Assembly: GCF_000802205.1 (NCBI RefSeq)
Contig: NZ_CP012850.1
Location: 3,312,587 to 3,376,586 of the forward strand
DNA length: 64,000 nucleotides
Direction: 5' to 3'
Origin: Candidatus Nitrosocosmicus oleophilus
GTDB taxonomy: Archaea > Thermoproteota > Nitrososphaeria > Nitrososphaerales > Nitrososphaeraceae
The translations under genes were made by a program, and so were the position numbers. Positions 15,715 to 39,084 of the stretch are shown in pieces. Positions within the stretch are counted from its first letter, which is position 1. Every line of letters starts with the position of its first letter. Under the pieces are notes generated by a model. The model was given only the letters and a program-made list of their open reading frames with translations. It had not been told where the DNA came from and did not search any database.

Positions 15715-16381
15715 GGCTCTGTTCATTTAACGATAAATCTATAGCTTGAAGATGTTCTATCTCTTTTGTGAGTACTAGAAACAGAACACCTTCAAAATAT
15801 ATATTCTATGGTTTGTATTTGTATTTTTCAGGTTTGTCATTAAGGCGAGTTTCAGAAAGGCTATCATGTTTTATCAGACGAAACCATGTCTCCATCTGGA
15901 ACTGGGTTCAAAAGTACCATCCAAAGAAAATATCCTCAAGGAAAAGGAATATCCTGGAATTCATTGTTGATGAGACAATAATCAAGGTGGGATCAGAATA
16001 CATTTGGCTATGGATTACTATAGAACCAAAAAACAAGGAAATTCTCGCACTAACTATCTCAAAGGAAAGAAACATGCTGATAGCAGAAAGGTTTCTCTCA
16101 GGCGTAGTCAAGATTCATGGAAAACATCCTGTATCGACTGACGGTGGAACCTGGTACCCAATGGCATGCAGATTCCTAAAACTGAAACACCATATTCATT
16201 CTCCGTATGAGAAAAGCCTTATCGAAAGAACTATGCAGTACATTAAGGATAGGACCGAATGTTTTGATGACTACTTTCCATGTAGAAAAAAGAACTGTAA
16301 CCTAAAACATGTAAGGAATTGGCTGAATCTATTTGTGGACTATCATAACAGTGAATTATATTCGGTTAAGTGAACAGAGCC
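15715..16381 (+). mobile_element. IS6-like insertion sequence, copy 1
   Basis: The 667-bp element is bounded by 11-bp perfect inverted ends (GGCTCTGTTCA at 15715-15725 and TGAACAGAGCC at 16371-16381) and by an 8-bp target duplication CTATTTTA (15707-15714 and 16382-16389). An 8-bp duplication is typical of the IS6 family. It carries one transposase gene and appears identical to the inverted copy at 36530-37196, so transposition was recent. Confidence 0.95.
15768..16373 (+). CDS. IS6-family DDE transposase
   Basis: The 201-residue transposase starts with GTG. A short N-terminal helix-turn-helix region (LSLRRVSERLSCF) is followed by the catalytic core with probable residues D68 (VDETIIKVGSEYIWLW), D125 (STDGGTW) and E153 (SLIERTMQYIKDR), plus K160 seven residues after the Glu as in IS6 enzymes. 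It is short for the family but has all three acidic residues. The stop overlaps the right inverted end. Confidence 0.9.
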   Translation: MSTRNRTPSKYIFYGLYLYFSGLSLRRVSERLSCFIRRNHVSIWNWVQKYHPKKISSRKRNILEFIVDETIIKVGSEYIWLWITIEPKNKEILALTISKERNMLIAERFLSGVVKIHGKHPVSTDGGTWYPMACRFLKLKHHIHSPYEKSLIERTMQYIKDRTECFDDYFPCRKKNCNLKHVRNWLNLFVDYHNSELYSVK

Positions 16382-28694: not shown

Positions 28695-29654
28695 TCAAAT
28701 ATATAGGAAAATCATACCCATTAGCCCACTTGCCATAGACAGAATTATCAAATCAGGAATTCTAAACAATCTCCATTTAGCAACTTTAGTTTCGATATAC
28801 GCAATCAAAATACCCAAAGATATCAACTTTAAAAAAAATACCATAAATCCTACAATTATCTCATAGAGTGAGAAAGACGTTGATAGACCCCAGGGAACGA
28901 AAAAATTAATTAATAATGACAATAGTAGAATTTGCTTTATAGATTGGGATAATTCAATAAGAGCAAGTCTTTTTCCTGAAAACTCCAAGACCATAGCTTC
29001 ATGAACCATGGTAAGTTCTAAATGGGTGGTAGGATTATCAAAGGGTAATTTTCCAGTTTCTGCCATAACGATAATAAAAAAACCAAATAGTGAAAACAAC
29101 AGGCTTGCCGATATCATTATGGAAGATGTTGCCGCATGATATACAATTGTGTCAATATTTGTTGAACCATAGATTACAGCTAAGGTAAATAAGGCCAAAA
29201 ATAGTGCAGGTTCTATTAAGGATGAAATCATCATCTCCCTGCTAACACCTATACCACCAAAACTACTAGAAACATCAAGTCCTGCCAGCATTAAGAAAAA
29301 CCTAGAAAGGCCAAAAAGCCCGATTACTAATATGATATCACCTCCAATTCCAAATTGAGGGTAGGCAACAAAAATTGGAACGAAGAAAGCAATAACTAAT
29401 GTAGATGAGAAAATAATCCAAGGCGAGAATCTAAATATCCAAGAAGAATCTTCTGAAATTACTTCATCTTTTCTTATCAATTTCAGTAAATTAAAATATG
29501 GCTGAAAAATGCTAGGGCCTGTTCTTTTTTGAGTTATTGCCTTTATCTTTCGCATTATTCCGGTTAATAATGGAGCAAGAATTATTATGATAAGAAATTG
29601 GATAATCCCGATAAGAATACCAGATGCAGATGCAGAAGTTTCAACAGGCATCAT
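28695..29654 (-). CDS. Ehr-type complex membrane subunit (HyfC/NuoH-like)
   Basis: The 319-residue protein has about eight membrane helices and the NuoH hallmarks: ITQKRTGPSIFQPYFNLLKL near residue 40, GIGVSREMMISSLIEPALF in the middle, and ETGKLPFDNPTTHLELTMVHE, which lines the quinone/proton pathway in complex I. It anchors the electron-transfer arm to the antiporter-like subunits. Its ATG overlaps the HyfB-like stop by four bases. Confidence 0.9.
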   Translation of the reverse strand: MMPVETSASASGILIGIIQFLIIIILAPLLTGIMRKIKAITQKRTGPSIFQPYFNLLKLIRKDEVISEDSSWIFRFSPWIIFSSTLVIAFFVPIFVAYPQFGIGGDIILVIGLFGLSRFFLMLAGLDVSSSFGGIGVSREMMISSLIEPALFLALFTLAVIYGSTNIDTIVYHAATSSIMISASLLFSLFGFFIIVMAETGKLPFDNPTTHLELTMVHEAMVLEFSGKRLALIELSQSIKQILLLSLLINFFVPWGLSTSFSLYEIIVGFMVFFLKLISLGILIAYIETKVAKWRLFRIPDLIILSMASGLMGMIFLYI

Positions 29655-31726
29655 GGAGATAACCTCACATACAGCAGTAGCAATATGACGATTACAAAGA
29701 CGTTGAGTAAATACAAATTAACCTTTCCGGTCTTGAATTTTTTTATTCCCTCATATGCTTTAATTACGTTCCTAATAATTGGTTCATATATGAAATCCTC
29801 GATGATATTTTTGTTAGAAATCTGAATTTTAACTGATTTTTTAATGTAGGGATTAGAAGAATGGTATGGAATACTCTGAATGATCAAAGTAGGTCTATAG
29901 AAATTTCTAAATACATGTAGTATAGGTTGAGATAGAGAGGAAGCAGTATATTGCATTCTTTCATTCAGACTGTCCACTCCACAACTCCAAGTTTCAGAAA
30001 TTCTTTGTTTTGTTCTGCCACCGACTCCATAAAGAAATCCGATTGTCGCAACCAGAATTGATACAAATATCACTAGGATAACTGGCAGAGAAAGTTCAGA
30101 AACATTATTATTATTTCCAGGGTCTGACGAAATCGAACCAAATGAAAATAAAGTTTGATTCAAAGGCACCTGAAAATTAAATGCAAGATTTATCATACTT
30201 ATTCCAATCGATGGAATCAATCCTAGAATAACACATACAACTGCGACAATCCCCATTCCAACTAGCATGGTGTGAGGAACTTCTTTGATTTTGTAAATTA
30301 TTTCGGTGCGAGGTTTTGAGAGAAAAGAAATCCCAAAAATTTTTACAAAAGTAGCCAAGACAATTCCCAAAGTTAGTGCAAATGCCGCACTTGCAAAACC
30401 AAAAGAAATTGCGATAATAACATCAGGGATATGGTATGTAGATATAAAAGAGAGCATCACAAGATATTCGCTTACAAATCCGTTGAAAAAAGGCAAACCA
30501 GAAATTGAAAGTACTCCCACCAAAAAGAGAAGGGAAGTCCAGGGCATTCTTTTAACTAATCCCCCCAATTTTTCCATATTTGCCGTATGAGTTCTAAAAA
30601 TTATGGCACCAACCCCCATAAACAAAAGACTTTTAAAAATAGCATGATTTAATAGATGAAGCATGGCAGCTAGCATCGCAAATGCAGACAGATAGATTAA
30701 ATTAAAAGATAGAAAAACAAGAGACAACCCAATTCCGATAAAAATTATCCCTATGTTTTCTATACTACTATATGCTAAAGCACGTTTGATATCTTTTTCA
30801 ACTACGCTATATAGCACACCTACTACTGATGTTATCGCTCCAATAGTCACAAACAATAATCCCCACCAAACAAATTCAGAGTTATCCGTTACACCTGATC
30901 CCACACCGCTAAAATCATAAATGATTCTTATCAGACCATAAACAGCGGTTTTGATCATGATAGCCGACATTAATGCAGACACGTTACTCGGAGCGGATGG
31001 ATGTGCGTAAGGAAGCCAAATGTGCAGAGGTACGATACCTGCCTTTGTACCAAAACCAACAAAGGCCAGGATGAAAACAATATTTTTCATCGATGCAGAA
31101 AAAGAATCCGAGGATAATCTAAAGGATTCAAAGCTAAGACTTCCGGTTTGAGACGAAAGTAACAGAAGTGAAGCTAATATTAGAGCAGTACCTAGGTTAG
31201 TCATAACCAAATAGATTATTCCAGATTTCAAGTTAGACTCATTTTCATGATTATATATTACGAGAAAGAACGATGTTATGGACATTAATTCCCAAAAGAC
31301 AATAAATGAGAAAACATCATTGGATGAGACCAAAAGTATCATGGAAAGAATAAATGTATTGAAAAAAAAACCAAATATAGTTACATGCTTATTTTCAATA
31401 TACTCTTTAATGTAACTCAATGAGTAAATTGATACTGAAAATGAAACTAAACCGATGAGAAGAAGAAAGAACGCAGCTATGCCATCAATAAGAAATTCAT
31501 GAACCGAAAAGACGTTATTTGAAGGTATTTCAAAATGAAGTGAACTTCCACCAAATATTACACTTAACGAGAGTGCGATTAAGAAGATCGACCCAATAAT
31601 AGTGGGAATGAAAAAGGGCTTTCCACTTCCATATTTTCTAAACAATAACGAGAATATTGCTCCAAAGATATAGGATATGATCATCATCCAAAATAATGAT
31701 ATCGAGTTTTCAAACACTGAAATCAT
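29651..31726 (-). CDS. Ehr-type complex antiporter-like subunit (HyfB-like), first gene of the operon
   Basis: A 691-residue membrane protein with about 15 helices and the Nuo L/M/N core GFGTKAGIVPLHIWLPYAHP followed by SAPSNVSALMSA. The C-terminal part has the hydrophilic HyfB/HycC stretch RISETWSCGVDSLNERMQYT and a last membrane helix. It is expected to pump H+ or Na+. It is the first gene of the operon, and a truncated copy of its 5' end lies at 33635-34012. A regulator is encoded divergently 300 bases away. Confidence 0.9.
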   Translation of the reverse strand: MISVFENSISLFWMMIISYIFGAIFSLLFRKYGSGKPFFIPTIIGSIFLIALSLSVIFGGSSLHFEIPSNNVFSVHEFLIDGIAAFFLLLIGLVSFSVSIYSLSYIKEYIENKHVTIFGFFFNTFILSMILLVSSNDVFSFIVFWELMSITSFFLVIYNHENESNLKSGIIYLVMTNLGTALILASLLLLSSQTGSLSFESFRLSSDSFSASMKNIVFILAFVGFGTKAGIVPLHIWLPYAHPSAPSNVSALMSAIMIKTAVYGLIRIIYDFSGVGSGVTDNSEFVWWGLLFVTIGAITSVVGVLYSVVEKDIKRALAYSSIENIGIIFIGIGLSLVFLSFNLIYLSAFAMLAAMLHLLNHAIFKSLLFMGVGAIIFRTHTANMEKLGGLVKRMPWTSLLFLVGVLSISGLPFFNGFVSEYLVMLSFISTYHIPDVIIAISFGFASAAFALTLGIVLATFVKIFGISFLSKPRTEIIYKIKEVPHTMLVGMGIVAVVCVILGLIPSIGISMINLAFNFQVPLNQTLFSFGSISSDPGNNNNVSELSLPVILVIFVSILVATIGFLYGVGGRTKQRISETWSCGVDSLNERMQYTASSLSQPILHVFRNFYRPTLIIQSIPYHSSNPYIKKSVKIQISNKNIIEDFIYEPIIRNVIKAYEGIKKFKTGKVNLYLLNVFVIVILLLLYVRLSP

Positions 31727-33634: not shown

Positions 33635-34012
33635 TCATAATTCCTCATTCGTATCCCTAGTTATTCTTATTTTCAGGTCAGATATTGGTAGTGATACTAT
33701 ACCTATAAGCAGAACAAAAAATGCAGGGACATCATTTATCAAGAATTCATTTATTGAAAAATAAGTTGGCGGTGCATTTTCAAAATGAAGTGAACTTCCA
33801 CCAAATATTACATTTAACGAAAGTGTCATTGTGAAATTAAATGCAGTAATAATAGGAACAAAAAAAGGTTTTCTATGGTCATACTTTCTCATTAACGGGG
33901 GGATTAAGGCACCAAAAACATGACATCCAACGACTAATTTGATGAATTGAAAATTAGTGACAATTGATAAAATCATGATATTGTTCATATCCTCTAGAAT
34001 TTCTTGTACCAA
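33635..34012 (-). pseudogene. Decayed 5' copy of the HyfB-like gene
   Basis: The 125-residue frame aligns with residues 1-105 of the HyfB-like protein: KPFFVPIITAFN against KPFFIPTIIGSI, NVIFGGSSLHFE against SVIFGGSSLHFE, and INEFLINDVPAFFVLLIGIV against VHEFLIDGIAAFFLLLIGLV. It stops after about 105 aligned residues and the remaining 580 are missing. Some DNA blocks (about 45 bases around GTGAACTTCCACCAAATATT) are nearly identical while others diverged. It cannot make a working antiporter subunit. Confidence 0.85.
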
Positions 34013-36334: not shown

Positions 36335-36529
36335 GGATTAATTACGAGCATTACTAATTCAGAAAGACCTAAATCGATGAAATCCATTCAACTTCTTTTT
36401 AAGGTACTTGTACGACCAACTAAATTGTTGATTCAGTCGGGACCGTGCTCTCTTACTGAGCGTGTAAACCTTGAATTTAGCCAGCTATGGCTGACCTCCG
36501 CAGAATAAAAGATTTTCATGCAGACAAGA

Positions 36530-37196
36530 GGCTCTGTTCACTTAACCGAATATAATTCACTGTTATGATAGTCCACAAATAGATTCAGCCAATTCCTTAC
36601 ATGTTTTAGGTTACAGTTCTTTTTTCTACATGGAAAGTAGTCATCAAAACATTCGGTCCTATCCTTAATGTACTGCATAGTTCTTTCGATAAGGCTTTTC
36701 TCATACGGAGAATGAATATGGTGTTTCAGTTTTAGGAATCTGCATGCCATTGGGTACCAGGTTCCACCGTCAGTCGATACAGGATGTTTTCCATGAATCT
36801 TGACTACGCCTGAGAGAAACCTTTCTGCTATCAGCATGTTTCTTTCCTTTGAGATAGTTAGTGCGAGAATTTCCTTGTTTTTTGGTTCTATAGTAATCCA
36901 TAGCCAAATGTATTCTGATCCCACCTTGATTATTGTCTCATCAACAATGAATTCCAGGATATTCCTTTTCCTTGAGGATATTTTCTTTGGATGGTACTTT
37001 TGAACCCAGTTCCAGATGGAGACATGGTTTCGTCTGATAAAACATGATAGCCTTTCTGAAACTCGCCTTAATGACAAACCTGAAAAATACAAATACAAAC
37101 CATAGAATATATATTTTGAAGGTGTTCTGTTTCTAGTACTCACAAAAGAGATAGAACATCTTCAAGCTATAGATTTATCGTTAAATGAACAGAGCC
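36530..37196 (-). mobile_element. IS6-like insertion sequence, copy 2
   Basis: Identical element in inverted orientation: GGCTCTGTTCA at 36530-36540, TGAACAGAGCC at 37186-37196, 667 bp, with its own 8-bp target duplication AGACAAGA (36522-36529 and 37197-37204). The right end is 85 bases upstream of the repeats that precede the 577-residue protein gene. Confidence 0.95.
36538..37143 (-). CDS. IS6-family DDE transposase, copy 2
   Basis: The translation is identical over all 201 residues to the copy at 15768-16373, with the same D68, D125 and E153. Identity of the two copies and intact ends suggest both are active or very recently moved. Two inverted copies 20.8 kb apart could invert the DNA between them. 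Confidence 0.9.
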   Translation of the reverse strand: MSTRNRTPSKYIFYGLYLYFSGLSLRRVSERLSCFIRRNHVSIWNWVQKYHPKKISSRKRNILEFIVDETIIKVGSEYIWLWITIEPKNKEILALTISKERNMLIAERFLSGVVKIHGKHPVSTDGGTWYPMACRFLKLKHHIHSPYEKSLIERTMQYIKDRTECFDDYFPCRKKNCNLKHVRNWLNLFVDYHNSELYSVK

Positions 37197-37281
37197 AGAC
37201 AAGATCAAGGAAAGATAATAAATTAGATATAATTGTGATATTATAACAAGCACGATTCTTAATACAAATTTAACAAAAATT

Positions 37282-37318
37282 TGACGGAAATGACGGAGCA
37301 AATGACGGAAATGACGAA
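37282..37318 (+). promoter_or_regulatory. Four TGACGGA repeats, likely operator
   Basis: TGACGGA occurs at 37282, 37291 and 37303, with TGACGAA at 37312 (spacing 9, 12 and 9 bases). The block ends one base before the TATA-like CTTATAAG. The arrangement suggests a dimer-of-dimers binding site, perhaps for the helix-turn-helix protein encoded just downstream. Confidence 0.7.
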
Positions 37319-37319
37319 A

Positions 37320-37327
37320 CTTATAAG
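37320..37327 (+). promoter_or_regulatory. TATA box of the 577-residue protein gene
   Basis: CTTATAAG lies 24-31 bases before ATG 37351, the expected spacing for a leaderless archaeal promoter. Confidence 0.7.
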
Positions 37328-37350
37328 AATTAAATTCAGTCATCAATTGC

Positions 37351-39084
37351 ATGCTAAGCAAGAGTCAAGAGGATCAAATTATTCAGTCTTACTTGCAAGG
37401 TTATTCTAGAGATGAAATAGCTGCAATGTTGGGAGTAGCAGGAGGATCAGTATCAAACATTATTCTTAAGTGGAAAAAGAGAATAAAAATCCCTGATGTT
37501 GAAGAAATAAGACAGTTCATGAAGACATTAAGAAAATCAAATTTGACTTTGAACCAGTGCTCTGAAGGATTTAGAATGTCTCAGTTAATGAATAAATTTT
37601 CGACAGGTAGAGATGACAATATTATCGACTTTGACAAGAATAGTTTTACTATTTTTGTAAAAGAACTGTATAATGCTTGTAAAAAGAATCAGATACTTCC
37701 GAGTAGGCTAATGACTTGGTTTAGAGATCTAGCGGAATTCTCATATGAATACCATGTCAAGTCAGTAAGTAAGGGGAACTCTGAGATACCCAGATCAGAT
37801 AATCTATATTATTCAGAGTCAAACAGGTCAATCCCTCTGGCAACGACAATTTCTTCTTTAATTGAAGAAATGAAAAATGAAGTACAAGATTGCAAAGAGA
37901 AGAAAACGAAATTAGTCGAAGAGATCGATTCGAATTTGATTATATTGGACAATCTACATAAAGAAATATCAAATCTAAAGCAAGATAAAATTCACTTTCT
38001 TTCTATATACAGTACATTTTCTATGGTAGACAAGAATCTGAAGGAGAATTGTAATATAGATCTGAAAACCGAAGTAGAATCGTTTGCAAATTTGGTCAAT
38101 AGTTTCAAGGAAAAAGGGTATGACATCAGGAGCATATTTGATGAGTACAGCAGATCAGCAGGGCTTAAATGGGAAATAACCCAAAAGCAATCCCAGATTC
38201 AGTCTCAACAGCAAAGTATTATAGAACTACAAAATGACATAAATCATTATGAATCTCTTTTAAATACTGGTAAAAAGAATTGGGATATTTTTTTTGAATT
38301 AGAGAAAATGAAATTTGGTATAAAAGGACTTAAGCAACTATGGTTAACGATAACTGAGATTGCAACAAGTAACAACAGAGAATACGCAACTGCAATAGAC
38401 GCATTCATCAAAGATGTGGAAGACAATTATCACGACAAATTAAGATTTGAAGATAAAGTAATGGAAAAGAGAAAAGAATTGGATATGATAAATATACAAT
38501 TAAAATCAAATAGGCATAATCTTTTATTGGATCCCATCATAGGATCATGCCTATTATCACTTTTTCGAAACGGGATTACTGAGCAAGATATTGTTGAGCT
38601 GGTTCAGTTATTTCAAAATAGTTTGCAAGAAAACAAACTGCGTATCAAGGATACATCACAAGGAGAAAAAACAGTAACTGATTCGTATGAATTCCTCCAA
38701 GGAAATGGAGGATGGAAAGCATTGGTAAATGAGTTAAAAAAATATGATGGGATTAAAGAAGCAGTTAGACATGAGACAATGATTCTAAAAAAATTAAAAG
38801 CCGAAAATTCGATGATAATGAGAGAGTCAAAGAATTTGTCAGAACTATGTCAAACTACTTACCATCTAATCAGTATTTTAGACAATTATTGTTCCTATTT
38901 TAAAGGTTATTTTGATCAATGTCAAAATAAAAATACTTTCAACATTACACTAAACAATGTACTAATACCTCTCATCATTTTGGCAAATCACCATTATTCA
39001 GATAATAGTCAGAATAAGAAAGAAAATGGATCACAAGATCAGAACGATATGTCAGAAGACAATAACAAGGAGAATGATGTTTAG
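37351..39084 (+). CDS. Large helix-turn-helix and coiled-coil protein
   Basis: The 577-residue protein starts with a helix-turn-helix (residues 3-45: EDQIIQSYLQGYSRDEIAAM, LGVAGGSVSNIILKWKKR) like that of resolvases and sigma-type regulators. The rest is almost entirely helical, with coiled-coil stretches around 170-230, 270-330 and 375-400, then an acidic Asn/Asp-rich tail. There is no ATPase or nuclease motif, so it is not an SMC. A DNA-binding structural or regulatory protein is likely, possibly autoregulated through the four repeats beside its TATA box. It could derive from a plasmid or integrative element, but no other such gene is nearby. Confidence 0.75.
   Translation: MLSKSQEDQIIQSYLQGYSRDEIAAMLGVAGGSVSNIILKWKKRIKIPDVEEIRQFMKTLRKSNLTLNQCSEGFRMSQLMNKFSTGRDDNIIDFDKNSFTIFVKELYNACKKNQILPSRLMTWFRDLAEFSYEYHVKSVSKGNSEIPRSDNLYYSESNRSIPLATTISSLIEEMKNEVQDCKEKKTKLVEEIDSNLIILDNLHKEISNLKQDKIHFLSIYSTFSMVDKNLKENCNIDLKTEVESFANLVNSFKEKGYDIRSIFDEYSRSAGLKWEITQKQSQIQSQQQSIIELQNDINHYESLLNTGKKNWDIFFELEKMKFGIKGLKQLWLTITEIATSNNREYATAIDAFIKDVEDNYHDKLRFEDKVMEKRKELDMINIQLKSNRHNLLLDPIIGSCLLSLFRNGITEQDIVELVQLFQNSLQENKLRIKDTSQGEKTVTDSYEFLQGNGGWKALVNELKKYDGIKEAVRHETMILKKLKAENSMIMRESKNLSELCQTTYHLISILDNYCSYFKGYFDQCQNKNTFNITLNNVLIPLIILANHHYSDNSQNKKENGSQDQNDMSEDNNKENDV

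Follow-up and report, generated by a model that had tools for sequence, protein, structure and literature searches.

The window analysed in this study is a 64,000-nucleotide stretch of DNA from the archaeon Candidatus Nitrosocosmicus oleophilus, and the locus of interest within it consists of an intact gene for a 577-residue protein with an N-terminal helix-turn-helix (HTH), four TGAC repeats followed by a TATA box in front of this gene, and an insertion sequence (IS) further upstream (Table 1). Three of the repeats are exact copies of TGACGGA (37282-37288, 37291-37297 and 37303-37309) and the fourth is TGACGAA, with one mismatch (37312-37318), so the start-to-start spacings are 9, 12 and 9, as the original prediction had described for the array upstream of the gene. 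The same prediction let the repeats end one base before the TATA box; the array does abut the box, but the gap is two bases. The TTATAA word itself lies 30 bp upstream of the ATG at 37351. By itself, the heptamer TGACGGA occurs in the window about as often as chance predicts (4 matches vs 3.3). When clusters of it were sought across the 3.43-Mb genome, the operator pair, TGACGGA followed by TGACGG after 0-10 bases, occurred only at the window site (two overlapping matches; none for the reversed control).

Table 1. Features at the locus, in coordinates of the 64,000-nucleotide window.
Feature	Position	Strand	Basis or remark
IS element, 667 bp, IS240-type DDE transposase	36530..37196	-	Profile match; flanking duplications; absent in a relative
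Candidate operator, four TGAC repeats	37282..37318	+	Sequence; geometry repeated in front of homologous genes
TATA box TTATAA, two bases 3' of the last repeat	37321..37326	+	Reading of the sequence
Intact gene, 577-aa protein with HTH and predicted coiled coil	37351..39084	+	Open reading frame; dN/dS 0.32
Arg20-Asp21 codons, first residues of HTH helix 2	37408..37413	+	Covary with the base after TGAC
Codons of residues 31-35, start of the recognition helix	37441..37455	+	Residue 35 covaries with the repeat; 31 and 32 more weakly

The IS is flanked by 8-bp duplications, AGACAAGA, at 36522-36529 and 37197-37204, and is absent from the corresponding place in the related genome G013 (locus L077). 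A second full-length copy, 100% identical, lies on the minus strand of the window at 15715-16381, and the genome holds 12 more matches, diverged or partial. The distance of 85 bases between the IS and the repeats given by the original prediction is correct, since the element ends at 37196 and the first repeat begins at 37282. The insertion left the operator untouched; an influence on the expression of the window gene is possible, and the IS is a neighbour that stands outside the regulator. Elsewhere in the window, a short open reading frame on the minus strand (33635-34012) resembles by eye the N-terminal part of a 691-aa membrane protein encoded at 29651-31726, and is perhaps a decayed partial duplicate of that gene.

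Concerning the structure of the 577-aa protein, the HTH comprises residues 1-40, predicted with a pLDDT of about 71-85 per block of ten residues. The remainder is predicted to be mostly helical at low confidence (whole-protein mean pLDDT 41.7), and the full-length model was too poor for use; long coiled coils are a plausible reading of the predicted tail. In the N-terminal model, residues 20 and 21 open helix 2, and residues 31 and 35 lie within helix 3. The start of helix 2 and the recognition helix are the places where HTHs touch DNA.

Profile searches were performed at E values up to 1 for the window protein and up to 0.1 for ten relatives. The HTH weakly resembled the Sleeping Beauty/Tc1-type HTH_SB domain (PF25787, 22.1 bits, below the 43-bit cut-off), and its domain profile, searched against solved structures, returned only weak generic HTHs, with PDB 6urs at E 0.0013. 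No convincing match among solved structures was obtained with the whole protein as the query, and a fold search with the N-terminal model gave none at E up to 0.001, its high-probability matches being HTH-sized. NCBIfam and PHROGs returned weak coiled-coil or generic HTH matches only, and the PADLOC defence profiles gave zero matches for three proteins. A Tc1/Sleeping Beauty transposase, with which the window protein shares the weak HTH likeness, was rejected, because the 577-aa protein carries no DDE profile and the HTH_SB match was sub-threshold.

Relatives of the window protein were found by protein search in 29 of 61 genomes, and a profile of the HTH region matched 40 of 70 genomes of the taxonomic family of the source and 16 of 250 genomes sampled from the phylum, several of these 16 weakly. 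A single genome holds up to 16 such matches. Within the source genome, no long form other than the window gene was found unbroken; stops interrupt the copies near 28 kb, 754 kb and 2.34 Mb. Several groups of family genes keep the same chromosomal neighbourhood across species, indicating that they are inherited chromosomal genes. The dN/dS of the window gene is 0.32 against a 57%-identical relative and ranges from 0.2 to 0.7 in sixteen member pairs, and many family copies are broken; on this evidence, the genes seem to arise and disappear along with their operators. The family is fast-evolving and chromosomal. A search of the literature by titles and the beginnings of abstracts, with few subscription papers covered, found no description of it.

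Two further observations on neighbourhoods were made by eye. In several species, the loci L016, L041 and L022 adjoin what appears to be the end of radA, which may be a conserved place in the chromosome, and the orthologous members L021 and L023 adjoin a stretch encoding a ParA/ArsA-like ATPase with a KGGTGKT motif.

The surroundings of the family genes were compared using 143 HTH domains from 242 loci, from which identical domains had been removed; the set includes some fragments and close orthologues, and one locus (L125) gives two domains. A few of the loci originated from a repeat-pattern search, and the genes in question were among those found by the protein search as well. At least three sense repeats were present in 86 of 142 upstream windows; the controls gave 11 of 132 for windows far upstream and 4 of 140 for windows downstream. 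Between neighbouring sense repeats upstream, a spacing of 9 bp was counted 108 times (3 far upstream, 0 downstream) and one of 12 bp 104 times (0 far upstream, 1 downstream). Successive spacings followed the order long-short in 68 cases, short-long in 65, long-long in 21 and short-short in 3, that is, 133 alternating vs 24 like-like. As short and long spacings alternate, the period is 21 bp, or two helical turns.

A lack of repeats upstream of homologues was the finding that the original prediction had named as speaking against it. Here, a phased TGAC/TGAAC cluster was found upstream of 51 of the 60 members whose frames span at least 350 aa (the other nine have none), as well as of 8 of 14 members with frames of 250-349 aa, 19 of 47 with 130-249 aa and 14 of 22 with fewer than 130 aa. 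Where typed members have a TATA-like word after the last repeat, this word starts 4-6 bases past the last TGAC in 31 of 69.

Sense clusters could be typed in 92 members, and the commonest repeat type per member was TGACG in 45, TGACC in 22, TGAAC in 13, TGACT in 10 and TGACA in 2. The base after TGAC differs between members and agrees inside clusters (0.80 vs 0.53 when shuffled). Members with Arg-Asp at residues 20-21 have TGACG in 39 of 41 cases, those with Arg-Lys have TGACC (4/4), as do five of the six with Arg-Asn, and those with Leu-Asp have TGACT (8/8). TGAAC was found in none of the 65 members with Arg20 vs 13 of the 27 without it. Most of the information about the repeat is held by residues 21, 20, 35 and 31, and the second repeat base gave weak column signals only. 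Outside the taxonomic family of the source, three members (L155, L156 and L157) have TGAAC repeats and no Arg at position 20, the repeats of L155 being 20-21 bp apart.

Pairs of members were also compared at matched identity of the sequence outside the HTH. In two strata (0.3-0.5), the columns that changed most were residues 21, 20 and 35, and these ranked within the first four at 0.5-0.6; in the closest stratum, which holds only 5 differing pairs, their signal was absent. Traits were further simulated on a tree built from the sequence that follows the HTH (69 rows, 188 columns), and against this null residues 20, 21 and 35 ranked highest (z 7.0, 6.6 and 5.2), followed by residue 32 (z 4.2). 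The residue-to-repeat rule missed 7 of 84 members, and 8 further members fell outside it. Proteins fitted their own arrays in 50 of 54 cases by this rule, which was derived from the same data, compared with a mean of 25 and a maximum of 38 when types were shuffled among paralogues within genomes. Strictly independent pairs on supported branches were so few that the tests lacked power, and the result was non-significant, the 5 pairs dividing into 1.9 the same way, 0 opposite and 3.1 with no difference, and a control column did nearly as well (1.4, 0.1 and 3.5); a second test with 6 pairs (2.7 the same way, 0 opposite, 3.3 with no difference) was likewise non-significant. As the letters of the repeat shift with a few amino acids of the HTH, it is probable that each member recognises the repeats in front of its own gene and thereby controls itself.

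Many short-form genes that lack a sense cluster have repeats on the opposite strand with an exact period of 11 bp. Adjacent reversed pairs at this distance were counted 81 times upstream, once far upstream and never downstream, and 20 reversed arrays with at least three repeats were found. The near edge of these arrays lies 65-165 bp upstream of the HTH domain, irrespective of the orientation of the upstream gene. In a syntenic group of five short-form genes (L009, at about 1.34 Mb in the source genome, L200, L203, L213 and L177), the reversed array sits between the gene and a divergent neighbour, and its unit varies by species: four of the genes encode Arg-Asp and have TGACG-type repeats (only two of three in L213), and one encodes His-Ser and has TGACCA. 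The rule from the sense clusters had been made without the reversed arrays. One of the 20 arrays fell outside it; of the other 19, it predicted 14 correctly, with ties in mixed arrays accounting for two of these. The five misses comprise three mixed arrays and two uniform arrays of another type (L177 and L238).

Three phased TGAC words (spacings 9 and 12) are unspecific by count, with 29 matches in 17 genomes vs 23 for the reversed control. By place, 12 of these 29 sites stand before family genes and 3 before relics in which part of the HTH remains; genome G004 accounts for 6, in five clusters of which four are mutually similar and one has a marginal remnant (E 0.017). The remaining sites are an orthologous pair with no gene recognised and 6 without a family match. 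The exact pair TGACGGAAATGACG gave 20 matches in 61 genomes vs 6 for the control, and 13 of these precede family genes, 3 precede relics (one marginal, E 0.21) and 4 precede neither. No regulon of other genes was seen with the patterns tried, which degenerate sites would escape. The loci L247 and L255, from two genomes, share an orthologous phased TGACC cluster behind which neither a family gene nor a relic could be recognised.

We consider it likely that each protein of this family binds its own private operator and regulates itself, most likely as a repressor, where the binding, the sign of regulation and the assembly through the tail are what we infer from these patterns. The N-terminal HTH would recognise the TGACGG(A) repeats before its own gene, one HTH per repeat, and the recurrence of repeat pairs 9 bp apart every 21 bp would set several molecules in a fixed register on the promoter. 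The helical tail may hold the bound molecules together, the HTHs binding the phased repeats cooperatively, and the complex would hinder TFB at the adjacent promoter, such that the gene is shut off as the protein accumulates. Judging solely from position, repression is the more probable sign, as the TATA box adjoining the last repeat is the place where binding of TFB is expected. Residues 20, 21 and 35 of the HTH would mainly set the repeat variant of each member, and, as every member has its own variant, paralogues in one cell need not cross-regulate. The autoregulated appearance noted in the original prediction is backed by the genome comparison, in which phased repeats precede most long members and covary with the DNA-reading residues.

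A comparable arrangement is known from bacterial plasmids. KfrA of RA3 (IncU) is autorepressed via five 9-bp direct repeats that overlap its own promoter and are unique on the plasmid (PMC7783346). KfrA of RA3 and of IncP combines an N-terminal HTH with a long alpha-helical tail, an architecture that the window protein may share, its HTH being modelled well and its tail as helical at low confidence, and a direct-repeat operator at its own promoter is common to both. However, KfrA is plasmid-borne and bacterial, whereas the archaeal family is chromosomal, with many paralogues, repeat variants tracking the HTH, and a phasing of mostly 9/12 or 11 bp instead of 9-bp repeats. A Pfam model, KfrA_N, exists, and no KfrA profile matched the window protein (E up to 1) or the ten relatives (E up to 0.1). 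The best reading, by analogy, is that the family would work in the manner of KfrA without detectable homology to it. BldC of Streptomyces sits head-to-tail on a variable number of 9-bp direct repeats (PMC5859096), similar to the 9-bp spacing on which the archaeal HTHs would bind; in contrast to the 577-aa window protein, it is a small, tailless, MerR-like winged HTH of about 68 residues with many target genes. Membership of the BldC family was rejected as the window protein carries no MerR profile, and BldC is not a detectable homologue of the archaeal family.

The opposite sign of regulation appears unlikely. As an auto-activator, the bound array would aid TBP/TFB and form a positive feedback switch, with action over a longer distance in the case of the reversed arrays of the short-form genes. 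This agrees with an array lying upstream of the TATA box and not on the start site and with reversed arrays set well back. However, the last repeat is so near the TATA box that TFB binding should suffer, and KfrA, with the same layout, is a repressor (PMC7783346).

We regard as rather improbable a DNA-organising or segregation scaffold resembling KfrA or ParB, in which the array would be a centromere-like site and autoregulation secondary. Such a role would suit the long predicted helical tail, and KfrA, besides autoregulating, aids plasmid maintenance and contacts ParA/ParB proteins (PMC7783346). Against it, the clusters are placed before family genes and relics, no recurrent partner gene was seen beyond the locally conserved neighbourhoods, and neither the window protein nor the ten relatives gave a ParB profile. 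In ParB-parS systems, too, the DNA-binding protein has sites close to the gene that encodes it; parS is palindromic, unlike the direct repeats of the window array. ParB-parS partition was rejected on the missing ParB profile in these eleven proteins and the lack of a recurrent group of ParA-like neighbours. A DNA-organising role may nevertheless exist alongside autoregulation.

It is very unlikely that the repeats bind another, shared regulator and resemble the HTH type through nothing but common descent. The typed members do share the TGA(A)C core, but the covariation exceeds the tree-simulated null, is concentrated in the recognition helix and where helix 2 begins, and is broken by shuffles within genomes. 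Hardly credible is an origin as iterons of an integrated plasmid or other mobile replicon, which direct repeats beside a DNA-binding protein and the frequent decay of family copies might suggest, given that neighbourhoods are conserved between species, the window protein is without a match in plasmid, phage and viral collections, and it and the ten relatives lack a Rep profile. Accordingly, a plasmid, phage or viral origin and an iteron Rep protein, for which neither a Rep domain nor a replicon match was found, were rejected, and the iteron and parS alternatives of the original prediction found no support. Coiled-coil proteins are unmentioned in the available part of a paper on integrated elements of Thaumarchaeota (PMC6563490).

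Returning to private self-regulation, we tentatively suggest, as a possibility and no firmer, an undescribed family, in ammonia-oxidising archaea, of self-recognising protein-repeat pairs in which turnover of the array would rewrite the repeats and the HTH would follow, as in the co-evolution of centromeres and satellites, with residues 20-21 and 35 setting the base after TGA(A)C. The 11-bp arrays are satellite-like in appearance. If true, these proteins would be natural orthogonal regulators with a code that can be read from three residues, two of which open helix 2 while the third lies in the recognition helix. The 92 typed sense clusters and 20 reversed arrays amount to about a hundred pairs of protein and operator provided by nature, in which few reading residues differ; they make such an HTH recognition code directly testable and could supply orthogonal regulators for archaea. 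The finding also raises the question of why a chromosome keeps several fast-evolving genes that seemingly recognise only themselves.
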